Assembly (NCBI GenBank): GCA_021820445.1
Contig: JAKADN010000010.1
Location: 1 to 39,666 of the forward strand
Length of the DNA stretch: 39,666 bases
Origin: Nitrospirota bacterium
Lineage (GTDB): Bacteria; Nitrospirota; Leptospirillia; Leptospirillales; Leptospirillaceae
Reading direction: 5' to 3'
The notes beneath the pieces were generated by a model. That model saw nothing but the letters and a program-made list of their open reading frames with translations, ran no database searches and was not told the DNA's origin. Each line of letters begins with the position of its first letter. The first letter of the stretch is position 1. Shown here in pieces: positions 1 to 7,810 of the stretch. Both the position numbers and the translations under genes were made by a program.

Positions 1-368
1 AGAAGAGGCGGATCGGTGCCCAAGCCGGCGATCAGATAGTAGCAGTCGGGGTAAAAGGCCAGACGAATGTCGGTGGGAGAAGGAGACGGCTCGGAATGAG
101 GGTGGGAATGAAAGATGGCCCAGAGCGACCAGCCCTCCCGGCGCAGACGCTTCATCGCATCGAACTGCTCTCGGGTCTCCATCTGGTATCGGACCGGAGA
201 GTGAAGGGCGTTGGTGATGGGAAGAACGGCGACCGGCTTCCCTGAGGGATCCGCGGCCACGAGGCCGCAGGCTTCCTCCGGCCTAACGGACAGGCAGTGA
301 TCCAGAATTCTTCCCGCAAGGACCGCAGGAATGGCGACGCCCGGAATCAGTGGGCGGGAATCTGGCAT
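1..368 (-). CDS. JAMM/MPN+ metallopeptidase, 3' end outside window
   Basis: The 122 visible codons read as a JAMM (Mov34/MPN/PAD-1) zinc peptidase. There is an early catalytic-type glutamate in PEEACGLV. The full zinc motif HSHPHSEPSPSPTD follows, fitting H-x-H-x7-S-x2-D. Family members hydrolyse bonds after a carrier's C-terminal Gly-Gly: Mec+ releases cysteine from CysO, while QbsD and HcyD trim carrier tails. The ATG at 366-368 overlaps the end of the upstream MoeB-like gene by 22 bases, which suggests translational coupling in the sulfur operon. Its likely substrates are the two sulfur carriers encoded here, which both have residues after Gly-Gly. Family is well supported; the substrate is inferred. 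Confidence 0.85.
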   Translation of the reverse strand, partial: MPDSRPLIPGVAIPAVLAGRILDHCLSVRPEEACGLVAADPSGKPVAVLPITNALHSPVRYQMETREQFDAMKRLRREGWSLWAIFHSHPHSEPSPSPTDIRLAFYPDCYYLIAGLGTDPPL

Positions 369-1159
369 ACCCACTCGGAAGAGCCGGACACGGAGGTGAT
401 GGTCGGCGAGGGACCGCACAGGGGACATTTCGGATCCTTGGGGACCCGGAGTTTGCGGAAGCTCATGGAAAGAGCGTCATAAAGAAGAAGCTGTCCCTTC
501 AGGAGCTCTCCGATCCCGAGAATCTTCTTCACCACCTCCGCCGCCTGGAGCGTCCCGATCGTTCCGGCCAGGACCCCGAGAACTCCCGCCTCCGAGCAGG
601 AAGGGACCAAGCCCGGAGGAGGGGCTTCCGGGTAGAGGCATCGATAGCAGGGGGCATCGGTATGGCCCTCGAGGACGGTCACCTGCCCCTCGAAGCGAAG
701 GATGGAGCCGGAGACGAGGGTCTTGCGGAGGAAGAAGGCCGCATCGTTCACGATGTACCGCGTCCCGAAGTTGTCGGAGCCGTCGACGATCACATCGTAA
801 TCGGCAAACATCTCCATCGCGTTCTCGGCGGTCAGTCGGTCCTGGATGGGGTTCACCGTCACATCGGGATTCATCCGCTCGAGGGTCCGGGCCCCGGAGA
901 GAACCTTCGGGATGCCGACCGTTTTCTGGGAGTGCATGATCTGGCGCTGGAGGTTGGAAACGTCCACCACGTCCATATCCACAAGGCCGATGGTCCCGAC
1001 CCCGGCGGCGGCCAGGTACATGGCGACCGGACTTCCCAGTCCTCCGGCCCCGATAATCAGGACCCGGGCTGACAGGAGCTTCTCCTGACCCCGGCCTCCC
1101 ACCTCCTTGAGGATGATGTGTCGGCTATATCGAGAAATCTGATCTTCGCGAAATATCAT
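347..1159 (-). CDS. MoeB/ThiF-like sulfur-carrier adenylyltransferase (copy 1)
   Basis: E1-like enzyme of about 270 residues. These adenylate the C-terminal glycine of a ThiS/MoaD-type carrier before it is thiocarboxylated. The nucleotide-binding loop GAGGLGSP, the NLQRQ segment, a CYRC...CPLC zinc-type cysteine pair and the conserved cysteine in PSCSEAGVLG are all visible. The ATG at 1157-1159 (MIFREDQ) follows a strong AGGAGGG ribosome site, so the longer in-frame extension to 1207 is unlikely. It sits after the NIL gene and overlaps the JAMM peptidase gene. It is closely similar to the second copy at 2989-3798. Which carrier it charges is not known; the ThiS-like gene at 1409 is the nearer one. 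Confidence 0.9.
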   Translation of the reverse strand: MIFREDQISRYSRHIILKEVGGRGQEKLLSARVLIIGAGGLGSPVAMYLAAAGVGTIGLVDMDVVDVSNLQRQIMHSQKTVGIPKVLSGARTLERMNPDVTVNPIQDRLTAENAMEMFADYDVIVDGSDNFGTRYIVNDAAFFLRKTLVSGSILRFEGQVTVLEGHTDAPCYRCLYPEAPPPGLVPSCSEAGVLGVLAGTIGTLQAAEVVKKILGIGELLKGQLLLYDALSMSFRKLRVPKDPKCPLCGPSPTITSVSGSSEWVCQIPAH

Positions 1160-1169
1160 CAAAGCCCTC

Positions 1170-1412
1170 CTACCCCTCGAGAATGCTCTTTTCGAGGGGG
1201 TCCACATGAACGCCCCGCTCCCTCAGATACAGCACGGTCCGTTCGATGTCCGCGAGTTCGCCGTCCATCTCGAGTTCGACCCATCCGCTGTCGAGAGAGA
1301 TGTCCGCCCTCCGGATGTTGACGACCACGGGAAACTTGCGGCAGATCTCATAGATGATCGGCTCCCTGACGCGCTCCTCGGGAAAGGTCAGGTGAAGTCT
1401 CATCTGGGTCAT
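1170..1412 (-). CDS. NIL-domain protein
   Basis: An 80-residue protein made almost entirely of one NIL domain, a small ferredoxin-like fold. The family is named after the motif found at the C-terminus of the MetN methionine transporter. NIL domains also occur in a NIL-ferredoxin protein tied to homocysteine synthesis in methanogens. The start ATG overlaps the stop of the upstream sulfur-carrier gene (ATGA), so the two are translationally coupled. It lies between the carrier and MoeB copy 1, suggesting a part in the same pathway, perhaps binding methionine or holding an intermediate. No catalytic residues are evident, and the precise role is unknown. Confidence 0.75.
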   Translation of the reverse strand: MTQMRLHLTFPEERVREPIIYEICRKFPVVVNIRRADISLDSGWVELEMDGELADIERTVLYLRERGVHVDPLEKSILEG

Positions 1413-1690
1413 GCCGAGCCTCCCGCGATGGCCGGAATGATCGAAACCTCGTCTCCCGGCTTGATGGAGGTATCGAGTCCCTCACGGAACCGGATATCTT
1501 CCTCGTTGACGTAGATATTGATGAAACGGCGCAGCTCTCCGCTCTCATCCGCCAGACGCTCTCCGATCCCCGGATAGTGGAGCTCGAGATTCTTCAGGAT
1601 CTCCCTGATCGTCCCTCCCTCCTCCCGAACCTCGTTCTGGTTGCCGGTGAGCTTGCGGAGGGGCGTGGGAATGCGAACGACAACGGACAT
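1409..1690 (-). CDS. ThiS/MoaD-like sulfur carrier with -GGSA tail (carrier 1)
   Basis: A 93-residue beta-grasp protein of the MoaD/ThiS/CysO class, ending IIPAIAGGSA. Active carriers end in Gly-Gly, which becomes the thiocarboxylate. Here Ser-Ala follows, so the tail must be trimmed. The downstream JAMM peptidase is the obvious candidate. It begins 22 bases after the threonine-synthase-like gene and its stop overlaps the NIL start. At 93 residues it is the MoaD/CysO size rather than short ThiS. The neighbours argue against a role in molybdopterin or thiamine synthesis: there is no moaE or thiG, but there are cysteine synthase, threonine synthase, metK and ahcY. Confidence 0.88.
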   Translation of the reverse strand: MSVVVRIPTPLRKLTGNQNEVREEGGTIREILKNLELHYPGIGERLADESGELRRFINIYVNEEDIRFREGLDTSIKPGDEVSIIPAIAGGSA

Positions 1691-1712
1691 GATCTTCCTT
1701 TCTCTGCGAAAT

Positions 1713-3023
1713 TCAGTTCGTGGGATTGACGGTTTTTCTGAAGGAGGCCAGGGTCGGATCGATGCCGACCGGTTCCGGCAGCGCCCCCGACAGGGCTTCC
1801 ATGGTCTTGAGACCGTTCCCGGTGATATAGGCGACGGTCAGGTCCTTCCGGCCGATCCGTCCTTCCGCGCATAGCTTCCTGAGGGAGGCAATGGTCACCC
1901 CGCCCGCCGTCTCGGCGAAGATTCCTTCTGTTTCGGCCAGGAGCTTCATCCCCTCGACGATTTCCGGATCGCTCGCCGCGGCAATCGCTCCGCCCGACTT
2001 GAAAACCACATCGAGGGAGTAGAAGCCGTCGGCAGGATTTCCGATGGCAAGAGACTTGGCGATCGTGTTCGGTTTGACCGGGATGAGGTGATTTTTGCCC
2101 GAGACAAAGGCCCGGTAGACCGGAGAACACCCTTCGGCCTGGGCGCCGTTGACCTTGAGGCGATCGTTCGACGAGACGAGGCCCAGCTTCTCGAACTCCT
2201 GAAATCCCTTCCGGATCTTCGTCAGAAGAGAGCCCGAGGCGATCGGAACCACCACCTGGTCGGGAATCCGCCAGCCGAGCTGCTCGGCGGTTTCAAAGGC
2301 CAGCGATTTTGATCCTTCGGCATAGTAGGGCCGGATGTTGATGTTGACGAAGGCCCAGGGGTATTCCCCTCCGATTTCGCTGCAGAGACGGTTCACATCG
2401 TCGTAATTTCCCCGCACGGCCACCACTGTCGGATTGTAGATCAGATTTCCCAGAATCTTCCCCGCCTCGAGGTCGTGGGGGATGAAGACGAAGCACTTCA
2501 TTCCGACGCTCGCGGCATGGGCCGAGACGGAGTTCGCGAGATTCCCGGTCGAGGCGCAGGCGACCGTATCGAATCCCAACTCCCGGGCACGGGTCATGGC
2601 GACAGCCACGACCCGATCCTTGAAGGAGAGGGTGGGATGGTTCACGGTGTCGTTTTTCAGGTAAAGGTTGTCGAGCCCCAGAAGCTTCCCCAGCCGTTTG
2701 GCGTGGATCAGCGGGGTCATGCCCGCATGGAGTCCCACCGTCGGAGCTCCGGTGACCGGAAGAAGTTCATGGTAGCGCCAGAGGGATTTCGGCCCCTCCT
2801 CGATCGAGCGCCGGGAGATTCTCCGCCCGATCGCCGCGTAATCGTAATCAACTTCGAGGGGACCAAAGCAGAATTCGCAGATATGAATCGCCACGGCCGG
2901 GTAAAGACGGCCGCATTCACGACACTTCAGTCCCTTTATCTTCGACTCCTTCGGAGAGGAGGCATTGGCCCCCTCCCCCCGGGTCTGTTCAGATTCCTGG
3001 TGTGGTGCAGACTGGCTGTTCAT
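1713..3023 (-). CDS. thrC: threonine synthase-like PLP enzyme
   Basis: 436 residues of the fold-type II PLP family. An N-terminal zinc-ribbon-like segment (CRECG ... CEFC, about residues 34-54) precedes the catalytic domain. The PLP lysine lies in LSFKDRVVA and a phosphate-binding ASTGNLANS motif follows. Known ThrC enzymes convert O-phosphohomoserine to threonine. The start ATG (3021-3023) overlaps the end of MoeB copy 2 by 35 bases and has a GGAG about 10 bases upstream. Its place between two carrier/activator modules is unusual for a plain threonine synthase. It could accept a protein-bound sulfide in place of water to make homocysteine; that is my inference. By sequence alone threonine synthase remains the safer call. 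Confidence 0.85.
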   Translation of the reverse strand: MNSQSAPHQESEQTRGEGANASSPKESKIKGLKCRECGRLYPAVAIHICEFCFGPLEVDYDYAAIGRRISRRSIEEGPKSLWRYHELLPVTGAPTVGLHAGMTPLIHAKRLGKLLGLDNLYLKNDTVNHPTLSFKDRVVAVAMTRARELGFDTVACASTGNLANSVSAHAASVGMKCFVFIPHDLEAGKILGNLIYNPTVVAVRGNYDDVNRLCSEIGGEYPWAFVNINIRPYYAEGSKSLAFETAEQLGWRIPDQVVVPIASGSLLTKIRKGFQEFEKLGLVSSNDRLKVNGAQAEGCSPVYRAFVSGKNHLIPVKPNTIAKSLAIGNPADGFYSLDVVFKSGGAIAAASDPEIVEGMKLLAETEGIFAETAGGVTIASLRKLCAEGRIGRKDLTVAYITGNGLKTMEALSGALPEPVGIDPTLASFRKTVNPTN

Positions 3024-3798
3024 AATCGATTAACTCCGTGATCGAAGGATGATCCCCGCATACGGGGCACTTGGGGCTTCGACGAACCGAAACCGGCCTG
3101 AAGGTCGTCGTCAGGGCATCGTAGGTGAGAAGCCGGTTTGCCAGAAGGTCGCCCTTCCCGAGAAGAATTTTCAGGACTTCGGTGGCCTGGATTGTTCCGA
3201 TCACTCCTGCGATGACTCCCAGGACTCCCGCCTCGGAACAGGTTGGAACGGCCCCTGTCGGCGGCGGCTCCCGGAAAAGACAGCGGTAGCAGGCGGATTC
3301 GCCGGGAAGGATGGTCAGAACCTGCCCAACGAAGCGCAGGATGCCCCCGTGGACAAGGGGTTTTTTCGAAATGACGGCCAGGTCGTTGATCAGAAACTTG
3401 GCCGGAAAGTTGTCCGTTCCGTCCAGAATAACGTCGTAGTCGGCGACGATCTCGCGCGCATTGGCGGCGGTGAGGGCATACGGGTATGTCCGGACGGTGA
3501 CATCAGGGTTCAGATCCCGGATTTTTTCCTCGGCCGACAGGACCTTGGGATGTCCCAAGTCCGCGGTGGTGTGGATAATCTGCCGCTGGAGATTGGAGAG
3601 ATCGACCACATCCATGTCCACGATGCCCACGGTCCCGACCCCGGCGGCCGCGAGGTACAAGGCGGCCGGACTTCCCAGCCCGCCGGCTCCGATGATCAGA
3701 ACGCGGGAGGAAAGAAGACGCTGCTGTCCCTTGCCGCCGACCTCCGGCAGAAGAATATGGCGGGAATAGCGTTCGATCCGCTCCTCGGTCAATTCCAT
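2989..3798 (-). CDS. MoeB/ThiF-like sulfur-carrier adenylyltransferase (copy 2)
   Basis: 269 residues, the same family and layout as the copy at 347-1159: the GAGGLGSP nucleotide loop, NLQRQIIHT, CYRC...CPVC cysteine pairs and the conserved cysteine in PTCSEAGVLG. It would adenylate a Gly-Gly carrier tail. It starts 10 bases after the CysM-like gene and overlaps the threonine-synthase-like gene. Carrier 2, CysM and this enzyme together form a module like mycobacterial cysO-cysM-moeZ, although it lacks the rhodanese domain of MoeZ. The sulfur donor is therefore not evident in the window. Confidence 0.9.
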   Translation of the reverse strand: MELTEERIERYSRHILLPEVGGKGQQRLLSSRVLIIGAGGLGSPAALYLAAAGVGTVGIVDMDVVDLSNLQRQIIHTTADLGHPKVLSAEEKIRDLNPDVTVRTYPYALTAANAREIVADYDVILDGTDNFPAKFLINDLAVISKKPLVHGGILRFVGQVLTILPGESACYRCLFREPPPTGAVPTCSEAGVLGVIAGVIGTIQATEVLKILLGKGDLLANRLLTYDALTTTFRPVSVRRSPKCPVCGDHPSITELIDYEQPVCTTPGI

Positions 3799-3808
3799 AA
3801 AGCGCCCC

Positions 3809-4753
3809 CTAAAGAGAGAGATATTTTTCGATCGAAAAGTAACGTTCGTATCCGTCGCACACGACCGTCACAACCCGGGATCCCTCGGGAAGCGTCCGGG
3901 CGAGGGCCATGGCACCGACGACATTGGCTCCCGAAGAGATGCCGGCCATGATTCCTTCTTCCCGGGCGAGACGGTGCGCCATGTCGATGGCCTGACGGTC
4001 GCTCACGGTCAGGACTTTCGTGATCACCGACCGGTCGAGAATCTTCGGGACGAAGCCTGCGCCGATCCCCTGGATCCTGTGTGGGCCGGGTCCTTTCCCG
4101 GAAAGGACTGCCGAGCCCTCCGGCTCCAGCGCCCAAATCGGTATTGCTGGACTCTTTTCCCGGAGGAACCGCCCGATCCCGGTAATTGTCCCTCCCGTTC
4201 CCACACCCGCAACGAAACCGTCCGGAAGAGATCCCAGGGCCTCGAGTATTTCCGGAGCGGTCGTCCGGTAGTGCGATTCGGGATTGGCAGGGTTCTCAAA
4301 CTGGCGGGGCATGAAGGCCCCAGACTCGCTTTGCATGATCTCCTGGGCCCGATCAATGGCCGCCTGCATGCCCCCTCCCGAAGGAGTGAGCTCGACCGTC
4401 GCCCCGAGAGCCTTCAGGTGGGAGACTCGTTCCTGGCTCATTCCCTCAGGCATCACGATGGTGACGGGATGGCGAAAGAGAACCGCGATCTGGGCAAGGC
4501 CTATTCCCATATTACCACTTGTCGCTTCGACTATGCGGGCGCCGGGCCGGAGAAGCCCCCTCTTCCGGGCATCGTCGATCATAAAGAGAGCGGGCCGGTC
4601 CTTGATGCTTCCACCGAGACTCCGCGATTCGAGCTTGACCAGAATCGTCCGGCCGAGATCGACGCTGATTTTCGAGAGAGGCACAAGGGGTGTCCGCCCG
4701 ATCAGTTCCAGGAGGGGAGAGACCGGAGTCCCTCCCGATTGTGGAGATGTCAC
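3809..4753 (-). CDS. cysM: cysteine synthase, CysM/CysK family
   Basis: About 314 residues of a fold-type II PLP enzyme: the PLP lysine in GGSIKDRPA, the substrate loop TSGNMGIG, the phosphate-binding GVGTGGTITG and the C-terminal ISSGAN. These enzymes replace the side group of O-acetyl- or O-phosphoserine with sulfide to make cysteine. A GTG start at 4751-4753, with AAGGAA seven bases upstream, places the protein start just before the family's LLELIGRTPLV segment. A longer frame reaching 4957 runs through the upstream carrier gene and is not believable. It sits 37 bases after carrier 2 and 10 bases before MoeB copy 2. By analogy with mycobacterial CysM, it may take sulfur from carrier 2 thiocarboxylate; the acceptor (phosphoserine or acetylserine) cannot be told from this reading. 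Confidence 0.9.
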   Translation of the reverse strand: MTSPQSGGTPVSPLLELIGRTPLVPLSKISVDLGRTILVKLESRSLGGSIKDRPALFMIDDARKRGLLRPGARIVEATSGNMGIGLAQIAVLFRHPVTIVMPEGMSQERVSHLKALGATVELTPSGGGMQAAIDRAQEIMQSESGAFMPRQFENPANPESHYRTTAPEILEALGSLPDGFVAGVGTGGTITGIGRFLREKSPAIPIWALEPEGSAVLSGKGPGPHRIQGIGAGFVPKILDRSVITKVLTVSDRQAIDMAHRLAREEGIMAGISSGANVVGAMALARTLPEGSRVVTVVCDGYERYFSIEKYLSL

Positions 4754-4790
4754 GATGGCTTTCCTTACTGGGGAAGTGACGCCGCCGTAA

Positions 4791-4997
4791 TCAGGCCGCG
4801 CCACCTCCCATGAAAAAGAGAATCTCCAGTTCGTCCCCCTCAGACAGGACAGTCCCGTCGAGATCAGACTTTTCCAGAATTTTGCCATTATGTTCAACCG
4901 ACACGAGGGCGGGATCAAGTTCCTTTGCCTTGAGCACCGAGGTGACCGTACTCCCAAGACCCACCGTTTCGGTTTTTCCGTTGACTCTGATATCCAT
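4791..4997 (-). CDS. ThiS-like sulfur carrier with -GGGAA tail (carrier 2)
   Basis: A 68-residue ThiS-like beta-grasp protein starting MDIRVNGK and ending LFFMGGGAA. Two alanines follow the glycines, so the Gly-Gly terminus needed for adenylation is hidden until trimmed. It follows ahcY by 8 bases and precedes the CysM-like gene. The neighbours point to cysteine synthesis rather than thiamine; no thiG, thiF-thiH or thiE gene is nearby. The protein differs strongly from carrier 1 in length and sequence, so the two carriers probably have separate partners. Confidence 0.88.
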   Translation of the reverse strand: MDIRVNGKTETVGLGSTVTSVLKAKELDPALVSVEHNGKILEKSDLDGTVLSEGDELEILFFMGGGAA

Positions 4998-5005
4998 GAA
5001 TGCTC

Positions 5006-6262
5006 CTAGGTTCCCTGCTCCCAGGACGCAAGATAGCGCTCCTGTTCCGGCGTCAGGGTGTCGATTCCGATCCCGAGGGCCGAAAGCTTCCTGCTGGCGA
5101 TCTCACGATCGACCTCCTTCGGGATCGTCAGAACATCCTTCGGAAGGGTCTTGGCGTGCTTGACGATGAACTCGGCTCCGAGAGCCTGATTCGCGAAGCT
5201 CATGTCCATCACCTGGGCGGGATGACCTTCGGCGGAGGCGAGATTGATGAGACGTCCTTCCCCCAGGAGCATGATCCGGCGCCCATCCTTCATGACATAC
5301 TCCTCGACGAAGTTCCGAAGGGGATTCTTCCGGACGGCCAGCTTCTCGAGGGCCGGGATATCGATTTCTGCGTTGAAATGGCCGGAGTTGCAGACGATGG
5401 CCCCGTCCTTCATCACCTTGAAGGAGTCCTTGGCGATCACATTGATATCCCCGGTGACGGTGATGAAGAAGTCTCCCGCCTTGGCCGCCTCCCGGATCGG
5501 CATCACACCGTACCCATCCATGGCCGCCTCGAGGCCCTTGATCGGATCGACCTCGGTCACGATGACCTTGGCCCCCATTCCGGACGCACGCCGGGCAATT
5601 CCACGACCGCACCATCCATATCCGCAGACAACGACGGTCGAGCCTGCAAAAAGACGGTTCGTGGCGCGCATGATGCCGTCAAGTGTGGACTGGCCTGTCC
5701 CATAGCGGTTGTCGAAAAGATGCTTCGTTTCCGAATCGTTGACCGCGACAATGGGGTATCCGAGAACCTTGTTTTTGGCCATGGCCTTGAGTCGGATGAC
5801 GCCGGTGGTGGTCTCCTCGGTGCCCCCGATGACGTGGGGAAGCAGAGACTTAAGATCGGAGTGGAGCATGGAGACGAGATCCGCCCCGTCGTCCATCGTG
5901 ATCTGGGGCTTCGCTTCGAGAACCGCCCGGATATGGCTGTAATAGGTCTCGTGGTCTTCGCCCTTGATGGCGAAAACGGGGATTTCGTCATTGACGACGA
6001 GAGAAGCGGCGACATCGTCCTGGGTCGACAAGGGATTGGAGGCACAGAGCATGACATCGGCCCCGCCCGCCTTGAGGGTTTTCATCAGATTGGCCGTCTC
6101 GCTGGTCACATGGAGACAGGCGGCGATCTTCACTCCCTTGAGGGGCTTCGACTTTGCGAAATCCTTGGCGATATCCGCCAGCACAGGCATGTCCCGCCCG
6201 GCCCATTCGATCCGGGCAGCACCCATGGCTGCCAGCTTCTTGTCCTTGATGTCATACTTCAT
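5006..6262 (-). CDS. ahcY: adenosylhomocysteinase (SAH hydrolase)
   Basis: 418 residues, full length for bacterial SahH. It reversibly splits S-adenosylhomocysteine into homocysteine and adenosine, using bound NAD. Visible features are HVTSETANL near residue 52, the substrate segment around [21 protein letters not shown], and the NAD-binding [17 protein letters not shown] lies six bases before the ATG. It sits 40 bases after metK in the same operon. The pair completes the SAM to SAH to homocysteine cycle, and the downstream genes would supply new homocysteine and cysteine. Confidence 0.97.
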
Positions 6263-6302
6263 TCAACGCTCCCGTCTGTTCATGAATGTTGGTTTTTGTC
6301 GT

Positions 6303-7460
6303 TCAGGCCAGGCGTTCCGTTTCCCGTCTGAGGCTTTCGGCCATGTCGAGCTTTTCCCATGTAAAATCCTCTTCCGTTCGACCGAAGTGGCCGTAGGAGG
6401 CGGTCTTGCGATAAATCGGGCGCCGAAGCTTCAAGTGTTCGATGATCCCCTTGGGCGTCAAAGGAAAGAGCTCCCGGACCACCGTCTCGATCAGCCGGTC
6501 GGAGACTGGCGAGGTCTGGTAGGTATTGACATGCACCGAAACGGGATCCGCAACGCCGATCGCATAGGCGATCTGAACTTCACAGCGTTTCGCAAGCCCG
6601 GCACCGACAATGTTTTTCGCGACGTAACGCGCCATATAGCAGGCCGACCGGTCGACCTTTGTGGGATCCTTACCGGAAAAAGCTCCCCCTCCGTGGCGCC
6701 CGGCACCTCCGTAAGTATCGACGATAATCTTCCTCCCGGTCAGTCCGGCATCACCATGCGGTCCACCGGTCACAAATCGCCCTGTGGGGTTGATGTGGAA
6801 TGTGACCGGACGGCTTCCCAGGAGATTTTCCGGAAGAACCGGCCGAACCACCTTTTCGATGACATCGCTGTAAATCTGTTCCTGGGTGATTTCGGGGGCA
6901 TGCTGGGTCGACACCACGATCGTGTCGATCGCCACCGGAACATCTCCGTCATACTCAAGCGTCACCTGGGCCTTTCCGTCCGGACGCAGATAGGGAAGGA
7001 CCCCCGACTTCCTGAGATAGGAGAGTTGCCGCGTCAGGCGGTGCGCCAGAAGGATCGGCATCGGCATGAGCTCCTCCGACTCGTCGACGGCCATGCCGAA
7101 CATCAGGCCCTGGTCCCCGGCACCTCCGGTATCGACCCCCATCGAAATATCCGGAGACTGGGAATGAATCGTCGTCATGACAGCACAGGTCTTGTAGTCG
7201 AACCCCGTTTCGGAGTCCGTATATCCGATATCCTTGACGACCTCCCGAGCCACTTCGTCGAACTGGACATTGTGGCGGGCCGTGATTTCTCCAGCCAGCA
7301 GGACGAGCCCGGTGGTGGTCAGGGTTTCGCAGGCCACCCGGCCCATGGGATCCTGGGAGAGAATCGCGTCGAGAACGCCGTCGGAGATCTGGTCGCACAT
7401 CTTGTCCGGATGCCCTTCGGTGACTGACTCGGACGTAAACAGGTAGTGGCTCTTGGCCAT
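6303..7460 (-). CDS. metK: S-adenosylmethionine synthetase
   Basis: 385 residues from the ATG at 7458-7460 ([13 protein letters not shown]), which follows AGGAGG at good spacing; the in-frame extension to 7502 is rejected. It makes SAM from methionine and ATP. Family signatures are [13 protein letters not shown], the [10 protein letters not shown] hexapeptide region and the glycine-rich [16 protein letters not shown]. It is the first gene after the SAM-II-type riboswitch and terminator. Its expression should therefore fall when SAM is plentiful, together with the genes behind it. Confidence 0.98.
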
Positions 7461-7482
7461 CAAATCCTCCTGGATTGAAGAC

Positions 7483-7515
7483 AAAAAAAAACCCAGTGCC
7501 ATTCAGCACAGGGTT
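7483..7515 (-). terminator. Intrinsic terminator (attenuator) in the metK leader
   Basis: On the minus strand, AACCC-T-GTGC, a six-base loop and GCAC-T-GGGTT form a stem with a single T-T mismatch, followed by a run of at least seven T. It lies between the SAM-II element and the metK ribosome site. That position fits SAM-controlled transcription termination of the whole operon. An antiterminator partner was not worked out. A short direct repeat, ACTCGAT(GT)ACTCGAT, lies just upstream of the stem. Confidence 0.8.
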
Positions 7516-7538
7516 AATCGAGTACATCGAGTATTCCT

Positions 7539-7594
7539 GGACTTTTAGCACTTTTTTTTAAGGTGGTTGCAATAGTCTCAAATCACTCCACCAG
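7539..7594 (-). promoter_or_regulatory. SAM-II (SAM-alpha / metA-type) riboswitch
   Basis: The RNA strand shows the SAM-II arrangement. P1 pairs GGTGG (7588-7592) with CCACC (7562-7566). The loop contains GTGATTTGA...ATTGCAA, and the 3' part contains TTAAA...AAGTGCTAAAAG. The loop bases GACT are complementary to the terminal AGTC, as needed for the P2 pseudoknot. The GATTT, TTGCAA and GCTAAA blocks match the known SAM-II core as I recall it. It starts about seven bases after the predicted transcription start and precedes metK, the expected target. A covariance search with the SAM-II family model would settle it. Confidence 0.85.
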
Positions 7595-7608
7595 AGAGAT
7601 TGACTCCA

Positions 7609-7637
7609 ATACTAGCGCGGGCTCGAATCGGTGTCAA
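7609..7637 (-). promoter_or_regulatory. sigma70-type promoter of the metK sulfur operon
   Basis: TTGACA (7632-7637), a 17-base spacer, then TAGTAT (7609-7614) on the minus strand. This is close to the consensus. Transcription would begin near 7602, just before the riboswitch. It faces away from the tRNA-Ala promoter, with 32 bases between the two -35 boxes. Confidence 0.8.
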
Positions 7638-7734: not shown

Positions 7735-7810
7735 GGGGCTGTGGCGCAGTTGGGAGCGCGCAAGACTGGCAGTCTTGAGGTCACGGGTTCGACCCCCGTC
7801 AGCTCCACCA
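7735..7810 (+). tRNA. tRNA-Ala (anticodon GGC)
   Basis: A full cloverleaf can be drawn. The acceptor stem is GGGGCTG with CAGCTCC. The D stem is GCGC with GCGC. The anticodon stem is CAAGA with TCTTG, around the loop CTGGCAG. The T stem is ACGGG with CCCGT, around TTCGACC. The anticodon GGC reads the GCC alanine codon. The G3:U70 wobble pair, the alanine identity element, is present. The 3' CCA is encoded (7808-7810). No integrase or repeat of the tRNA end is seen next to it, so there is no sign of use as an attachment site. Confidence 0.97.

Follow-up and report, generated by a model that had tools for sequence, protein, structure and literature searches.

A conserved ten-gene operon of Leptospirillaceae as a candidate sulfur amino-acid system with two sulfur-carrier modules and a SAM-II type leader

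The window analysed here is a stretch of 39,666 nucleotides from a Nitrospirota bacterium of the Leptospirillaceae (contig JAKADN010000010.1 of assembly GCA_021820445.1, C85 below). At its beginning the minus strand carries ten genes, metK and ahcY in the lead, followed by genes of sulfur carriers, their putative activating enzymes (E1), a cysteine synthase, a threonine synthase-like enzyme (ThrC2), a NIL-domain protein and a JAMM/JAB peptidase, all of them behind a leader with a putative S-adenosylmethionine (SAM) riboswitch. Since window position 1 is the first base of the contig, the JAMM gene is truncated by the contig end. In the order in which they would be transcribed, the features are:

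7609..7637, minus strand: sigma-70 type promoter TTGACA-17-TAGTAT, 10 of 12 consensus matches
7535..7597, minus strand: SAM-II type riboswitch aptamer (RF01726 41.7 bits, cut-off 44, E 1.2e-6 in a 501-base search)
7483..7515, minus strand: intrinsic terminator hairpin and run of nine T, between aptamer and metK (-14.4 kcal/mol, z -4.2)
6303..7460, minus strand: metK, methionine adenosyltransferase, 385 aa (TIGR01034 577.1 bits, cut-off 309.4)
5006..6262, minus strand: ahcY, adenosylhomocysteinase, 418 aa (TIGR00936 626.2 bits, cut-off 497.6)
4791..4997, minus strand: carrier A, ThiS-like sulfur carrier, 68 aa, C-terminus FFMGGGAA (TIGR01683 54.7 bits, cut-off 37.45; PF02597)
3809..4753, minus strand: cysteine synthase of CysK/CysM type, 314 aa, GTG start (TIGR01139 365.6 bits, cut-off 350.95; PF00291)
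2989..3798, minus strand: E1a, MoeB/ThiF-like activating enzyme lacking a rhodanese domain, 269 aa (PF00899 288.8 bits, with no further Pfam family)
1713..3023, minus strand: ThrC2, ThrC-like, by sequence a MetM-type homocysteine synthase, 436 aa, with an N-terminal CRECG..CFG four-cysteine segment (profiles, relatives, tree)
1409..1690, minus strand: carrier B, MetO/CysO/SAMP-like sulfur carrier, 93 aa, C-terminus IIPAIAGGSA (NF041918 61.8 bits; PF02597 71.7 bits)
1170..1412, minus strand: stand-alone NIL-domain protein, 80 aa, possible methionine sensor (PF09383 54.4 bits, cut-off 24)
347..1159, minus strand: E1b, second MoeB/ThiF-like activating enzyme lacking a rhodanese domain, 270 aa (PF00899 279.1 bits, with no further Pfam family)
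3..368, minus strand: JAMM/JAB peptidase, truncated by the contig end, motif HSHPHSEPSPSPTD read from the translation (PF14464 65.3 bits)

Gene families were assigned to the open reading frames by NCBIfam and Pfam profile searches, the JAMM gene being scored on frame 371-3, which is one residue too long. All ten genes that the initial annotation had placed on one strand, with short gaps or overlaps and behind a single SAM sensor, were found in the claimed order: from metK to JAMM, the gaps are 40, 8, 37, 10, -35, 22, -4, 10 and -22 nt (range -35 to 40). Its further claim, that two carrier modules with a role in sulfur amino-acid synthesis lie side by side here, is supported by the gene families and their order.

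For comparison, the own genome and 60 relatives (61 genomes) were grouped into families f1 to f15, the own family being f1, and 49 relative loci were fetched, onto which the ten window proteins were mapped by tblastn (E 1e-4). Within f1, all ten genes stand in the same order in 17 of 20 relative loci, and the contigs of the other three end before metK; among the 17, metK is cut at the contig end in two and ahcY lies in two pieces in one. This comparison, which the initial annotation had proposed as a check, speaks against a chance order. Outside f1, neither metK nor ahcY has a match in the fetched loci, so that the joining of the SAM cycle genes to the carrier modules, also asserted there, holds for f1 but not elsewhere among the 49 loci. 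Carrier B and the NIL gene are each present in 48 of the 49 (where carrier B is missing, the contig ends soon after MetM), JAMM in 41, and carrier A in 39, in each case as the gene just ahead of the cysteine synthase; because the two E1 proteins cross-match, their counts per locus cannot be separated. Among the ten loci lacking carrier A, four are interrupted by contig ends, and the other six (f5, f8, f11, f12, f13, f15) show no match. In one relative locus, the cysteine synthase gene and the E1a gene are ~1.7 kb apart, and a HEARO RNA (RF02033, 90.8 bits; L042:6415-6661, plus strand) lies between them.

When considering the role of ThrC2, a first question is whether it is simply the threonine synthase of the cell. 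Its best NCBIfam match is TIGR00260 thrC (288.6 bits, cut-off 167.1). The own genome also has a separate ThrC1 (C12:28444-29424); the frames on either side of it were judged by eye to be homoserine dehydrogenase and aspartate kinase, and a weak match to homoserine kinase (57.5 bits) goes with them. Of the 61 genomes, 45 have such a second ThrC (34-41% identity, >150 bits). In a plasmid collection, the nearest protein to ThrC2 is from Nonomuraea gerenzanensis (51.8% identity), where the order is a SAM riboswitch (RF00162, 68.7 bits), the ThrC2-like gene and a carrier gene. The Nonomuraea protein is 52.6% identical to ThrC2 over 407 aa and its carrier reaches 60.4%; own ThrC1 is 33.5% identical to the same protein. 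A scan of viral contigs with the Nonomuraea protein gave 16 pattern matches and no relative. The Nonomuraea arrangement matches that described for metM-metO of Streptomyces albulus in PMC12172450, according to which a SAM riboswitch lies upstream of metM, metO is annotated as a sulfur carrier, and MetM was identified in Streptomyces by Hasebe et al. 2024 as a homocysteine synthase acting on O-phosphohomoserine. Of 585 relatives in named genomes, the 80 best were taken, all of these from actinobacteria and many from Streptomyces; these 80 are 49-56% identical to ThrC2, and a carrier gene lies ≤300 nt away in 77 of them (two of the three exceptions are on contigs that end <100 nt from the gene, and in the third the carrier is 303 nt away). 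RF00162 was found upstream in 8 of the 8 actinobacterial loci scanned, in addition to the Nonomuraea locus.

The tree unites the MetM group, to which Nonomuraea belongs, at 100/100 and leaves six ThrC1 rows outside; the attachment of Nonomuraea within the group is unsure (88/77), and long branches are flagged. Moreover, the alignment has 35 core positions at which 125 or more of the 128 MetM-group sequences agree and every one of the six ThrC1 differs from them. Among them are NxNxRP[YF]YAEGSK as against NSxNPxRxEGQ and ASGS as against GNAG, segments that presumably bind the phosphate of the substrate and that of pyridoxal phosphate (PLP). The ThrC-like enzyme is thereby placed in the MetM clade, apart from the housekeeping ThrC, the clade being anchored via actinobacterial loci that fit the published description and not via S. 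albulus MetM itself. The carrier gene adjoins the MetM-type gene (window 1690-1409), as in the MetM-MetO route. By sequence and neighbourhood, ThrC2 and carrier B match the MetM/MetO route from O-phosphohomoserine to homocysteine, and an ortholog of ThrC2 is found in 50 of the 61 genomes, two of them with incomplete genes (G039, truncated by the contig end, and G028).

The genes around MetM in other families point in the same metabolic direction. In G033 the order is homoserine dehydrogenase, a TusA/YedF-like gene (50.8 bits, below the cut-off of 79), E1, JAMM, MetM, MetO, NIL, thrC and a proposed homoserine kinase (TIGR02535, 566.9 bits, cut-off 446.3), with aspartate kinase (lysC) ~1.1 kb further on. 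In five loci (f5, f11, f12, f13, f15) thrC directly follows NIL, and in four of these the TIGR02535 kinase comes next. The f6 locus L199, which has no MetM, carries E1, JAMM, a carrier and NIL, bordered on one side by homoserine dehydrogenase and a TusA-like gene and on the other by the kinase and aspartate kinase; L198 and L200, of the same family, show the same E1-JAMM-carrier-NIL order with the TIGR02535 kinase next. Because of these neighbourhoods, carrier B, NIL, E1 and JAMM are taken to belong with homoserine metabolism. In the three f6 loci, where they occur without MetM, these genes perhaps serve the f6 PF01053 enzyme. As to NIL, methionine binding is reported for such a domain in a sulfurtransferase of a methanogen (PMC12068725), and by analogy the NIL protein of the window may bind methionine as well.

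A metabolic reality check is important at this point: do these organisms have another recognised way to make homocysteine? Across all 61 genomes, the best scores are 29 bits for MetX and 20.5 bits for MetA, and neither is recognised (since even the control genomes all stay below the MetX cut-off of 500 bits, the best scores were used as the guide); that the acylhomoserine enzymes were not found fits an O-phosphohomoserine route. HcyBio (PF01837, the DUF39 route) occurs only in five f4 genomes of the 61 and has no match in the own genome, where these profile searches thus found none of the HcyBio, MetX and MetA routes. Members of PF01053 (MetB/C/Y/Z) above 100 bits are found in 16 of the 21 f1 genomes (in two as fragments; the five without are 69-81% complete), in all five f6 genomes, in G027 and in G035, and the matches below 40 bits in nearly all genomes are taken for other aminotransferases. 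With "no other route" defined as the lack of PF01053 >100 bits, HcyBio, MetX and MetA, 27 of the genomes with MetM, G028 and G039 among them, are without any other recognised route. Conversely, among the eleven genomes without MetM, five have HcyBio, five have PF01053, and one (G037) has neither. As to the next step, MetE (PF01717) has no match in 60 of the 61 genomes, the own one included, and PF02965, the MetH activation domain, reaches only 23.5 bits in the own genome, so that no clear MetH and no enzyme leading from homocysteine to methionine was recognised there.

The leader of the operon suggests control by SAM. A scan of the whole window gives no riboswitch family at gathering score, and the aptamer itself falls below the RF01726 cut-off of 44; the same model scores 44.6-48.2 bits at the orthologous leader of ten relatives, and for this reason the window aptamer is taken as real, so that the single sensor is probably of the SAM-II type. 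SAM-II is found in 18 of the 21 f1 genomes, each time directly before metK, and in the three without a match (G006, G007, G019) the operon contig stops short of the leader. In all three f7 genomes sampled, it precedes JAMM-carrier A-synthase-MetM, without metK or ahcY (41.5 bits with RF01726, below its cut-off; in L071, 39.4 bits with RF00521, above its cut-off of 36); the other seven non-f1 loci scanned gave no riboswitch at gathering score. The promoter scan finds 2 such sites in the stretch against 1.8 expected by chance and in itself proves nothing; TTGACA or TTGACT also precedes the leaders of those relatives that were inspected.

The energy of the terminator hairpin is equalled by 2 of 200 shuffles, and of the ten aligned pairs in this hairpin, nine are conserved in every one of the 22 leaders and one in 5 leaders. 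When the P1 helix and the terminator are followed through these 22 leaders, 94.8% of the cells are paired, against 36-57% when the pairing is slid, and three pairs show changes on both sides (seven such cells, none when slid). In 500 covariation shuffles, 11 reach the both-side pair count, 101 the count of further pair types, and 0 the other three measures; covariation thus supports the P1 helix and the terminator. Judged by eye, a P2 pseudoknot pairing is possible in the own genus and in f7, but not simply in other f1 genera, and is not claimed. In the unliganded minimum-energy fold of the window leader, AGUGCUA pairs with the 3' arm of the terminator. This predicted fold, together with the conserved terminator, supports an attenuator that SAM would turn off; SAM-II aptamers followed by terminators are a known arrangement, as described in PMC9373788. 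Two genomes of the same genus have a second SAM-II aptamer with terminator (L107:4350-4459, minus strand; L108:756-865, plus strand), which precedes a short frame (55-89 aa, according to which start is chosen); an overlapping frame of 113 aa in L108 has no NCBIfam match. Divergent from the operon promoter lies a tRNA-Ala (GGC) gene (window 7735-7810, plus strand), and a tRNA is found near the operon start in several relatives too.

The cysteine half of the operon was approached through synteny and gene fusions. In four f2 genomes of four genera (L057, L063, L064, L065, counted within the 39 of 49 loci), carrier A is fused to the cysteine synthase in a single open frame, 376-385 aa long, which includes the FMGGG motif. 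Where carrier A is a protein of its own (35 cases), at least two residues always follow the first GG (third G counted), and the carrier B proteins have zero to three residues after AGG; such residues make a peptidase such as JAMM plausible. By their families, a carrier, a cysteine synthase and a JAMM peptidase are thus found in one operon, as in CysO-CysM-Mec+. A thiocarboxylate route to cysteine appears likely on these grounds, but not secure, and the case is weaker than for the homocysteine half: the cysteine module proposed by the initial annotation finds support in the synteny and the four fusions and none in the carrier A score or in the presence of CysE (see below). A third ThiS-family carrier is encoded in the own genome (L084, G000:C80, 6488-6679, plus strand); it ends in GFVGGGCAPCVGD, and no thiamine gene was recognised beside it by eye.

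Taken together, the gene set, its order and conservation, the MetM membership of ThrC2, the missing other recognised routes in many relatives and the conservation of riboswitch and terminator, all read from sequence, lead us to a sulfur amino-acid operon in which two protein-thiocarboxylate modules stand under SAM-II transcription attenuation, a reading that we hold with a probability of roughly 0.65. The catalytic steps, the pairing of E1s with carriers, the synthase substrate, the roles of NIL and JAMM, the binding of SAM and the direction of the switch are what we infer. Specifically, E1b (or E1a) would adenylate carrier B, of the MetO type, leading to a C-terminal thiocarboxylate, the sulfur of which ThrC2, as a MetM-type enzyme, would use to turn O-phosphohomoserine into homocysteine. 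JAMM would remove the residues after GG and/or free the amino acid from the carrier, and NIL could sense methionine and restrain MetM. In the cysteine module, carrier A and E1a would feed the cysteine synthase, while MetK and AhcY would make and recycle SAM. In the absence of SAM, the aptamer strand AGUGCUA would pair with the 3' arm of the terminator, so that the operon is read; with SAM bound, the aptamer would be locked, the terminator would form and the operon would be shut. A still wider picture can be envisaged, if only tentatively: the two relays would share one JAMM and two E1s, with SAM control at the RNA level and methionine control via NIL on MetM, and MetM-MetO would be the standard homocysteine route of most of the phylum, ancestrally placed in an aspartate-family operon and moved behind metK-ahcY in f1.

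Several observations weigh against the proposed operon. As regards attenuation, the 7-bp antiterminator, complete in the window, is kept across all 22 leaders as a 4-bp core only, and the unliganded minimum-energy folds, by our reading, show the antiterminator in 9 of the 22 (the window included) and the terminator in 13. As regards MetM, four of five f6 genomes have relatives of carrier B without it, and in G028 (locus L082) it is represented by a 145-residue match only, with the carrier gene 188 nt further on and the gene incomplete in the assembly. G037, 99% complete, lacks MetM, HcyBio and any PF01053 match above 40 bits, and its MetX and MetA scores are at noise level; it may be an auxotroph, suffer from an assembly gap or use another route. 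The pattern of presence and absence tracks whole families, which leaves few independent events. On the cysteine side, no JAMM match was found in the f2 loci, where carrier A is fused ahead of the synthase, the rest of the f2 genomes not having been searched. Carrier A passes the NCBIfam cut-off for ThiS, and the own genome has CysE (238 bits, cut-off 210.65); the latter, together with the cysK cut-off passed by the synthase, points away from the use of O-phosphoserine and a carrier thiocarboxylate. These last facts are what one would expect if only the MetM half depended on a carrier, the synthase using free sulfide and O-acetylserine, and carrier A serving thiamine synthesis or another thiolation and being merely co-expressed. 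We consider this doubtful, if well within reach, given that carrier A lies directly before the synthase in 39 of the 49 relative loci, in four of them, from four genera, as one open frame, and that contig C80 of the own genome has another ThiS-family gene.

The PF01053 enzyme of the own genome (404 bits, C79) could make or break homocysteine, and it is conceivable that in f1, where 16 of the 21 genomes have such a member and the five others are the incomplete ones mentioned above, homocysteine comes from this enzyme, with the MetM module as a minor or conditional route. This seems unlikely to us: the MetX and MetA scores leave no acylhomoserine supply in sight in the 61 genomes, and the f1 enzyme is nearest to methionine gamma-lyase, while staying below the cut-off of all NCBIfam families listed for it, 25 of 45. 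Less credible still is that ThrC2 is a second threonine synthase, with carrier B and E1b serving molybdopterin synthesis or tRNA thiolation. Such a role would agree with the thrC profile match and with the report that a MetM-like ThrC of Microcystis showed threonine synthase activity in vitro and that its rise gave no rise in methionine (PMC12172450). It would have to be reconciled, however, with the separate ThrC1, the second ThrC in 45 of the 61 genomes, the 35 differing core positions and the SAM riboswitches that precede MetM-type operons both in relatives of the window and in actinobacteria, and it would leave 27 genomes without any recognised homocysteine route. The slimmest chance, in our estimate, belongs to a ubiquitin-like (SAMP-like) protein-modifying system made of the carriers, E1 and JAMM that would regulate MoaD- or MetM-type enzymes; an archaeal SAMP1-JAMM system of such a kind is reported in PMC4443979. 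Carrier B scores above the SAMP1 cut-off (61.8 against 60), and the sole NCBIfam match of the JAMM protein is the desampylase model, below its cut-off (53.1 against 130), but the neighbour genes that could be identified belong to amino-acid or SAM metabolism.

How does the operon with its two carrier modules relate to known systems? In Wolinella, HcyS, HcyF and HcyD, working with MetY, provide a carrier with residues after its GG, an E1 and a JAMM for the synthesis of homocysteine; in Mycobacterium, Mec+ is the peptidase of the CysO-CysM-Mec+ system. The window shares with HcyS-HcyF-HcyD the combination of carrier, E1 and JAMM and the residues after GG, but no MetX was found and, among the families listed for the PF01053 protein, no MetY-type family over cut-off, and the PLP enzyme is ThrC-like, with O-phosphohomoserine as its probable substrate, judging by its relatives. 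The initial annotation had modelled the homocysteine module on HcyS-HcyF-HcyD; without MetX and MetY this type was set aside, and ThrC2 and carrier B match MetM-MetO instead. With the Mycobacterium system the window has in common a carrier, a cysteine synthase and a JAMM peptidase together (PMC11361707 for CysO-CysM); it differs in its ThiS-like carrier A, in a synthase that scores as CysK, in having CysE and in E1s that lack a rhodanese domain. Operon classes 4c-4e of Iyer et al. 2006 likewise combine ThiS/MoaD, E1 and JAB with cysteine synthase or sulfur genes, but the main text of that paper is without threonine synthase, NIL domain or methionine (PMC1779556). In the Sinorhizobium metZ riboswitch, as described in PMC9373788, a SAM-II aptamer is also followed by an intrinsic terminator, while in the window SAM-II precedes metK and a carrier operon. 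MetM-MetO of S. albulus has, like the window, a ThrC-like enzyme with an adjoining carrier, an upstream SAM riboswitch and the O-phosphohomoserine pathway, assigned here by relatedness (PMC12172450). Unlike it, the window has a switch of the SAM-II type (in the actinobacterial loci that were scanned it is RF00162) and adds E1, NIL, JAMM, the cysteine module, metK and ahcY. When the flanks of the 80 actinobacterial loci, the best of 585 relatives, were searched at E 1e-5 (over up to 7 kb, in part less), none of these additions was matched, the only exception being that in 17 loci the cysteine synthase weakly matched the MetM gene itself.

An integrated system new to science, as envisaged by the initial annotation, is thus found in part: what is new is the way the genes are packaged, with NIL, E1 and JAMM as partners and SAM-II as the control, and the homocysteine chemistry, with its O-phosphohomoserine route published in 2024, was already known. 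A full-text search, with most subscription papers outside its scope, found no publication that describes MetM-MetO with NIL, E1, JAMM and a cysteine module. According to Price et al. 2018, at least one route to homocysteine was still undiscovered, with three autotrophs named (PMC5764234), and MetM-MetO is a route of the kind that was missing. It is suggested here as the only recognised homocysteine route in 27 of the 61 genomes of the phylum sample. The activating, processing and regulatory partners of MetM, not seen beside it in the 80 actinobacterial loci (the best of 585 relatives), make up a concrete and testable parts list, and it would follow that annotating ThrC2 as a threonine synthase leaves an apparent gap in the methionine pathway of these bacteria.

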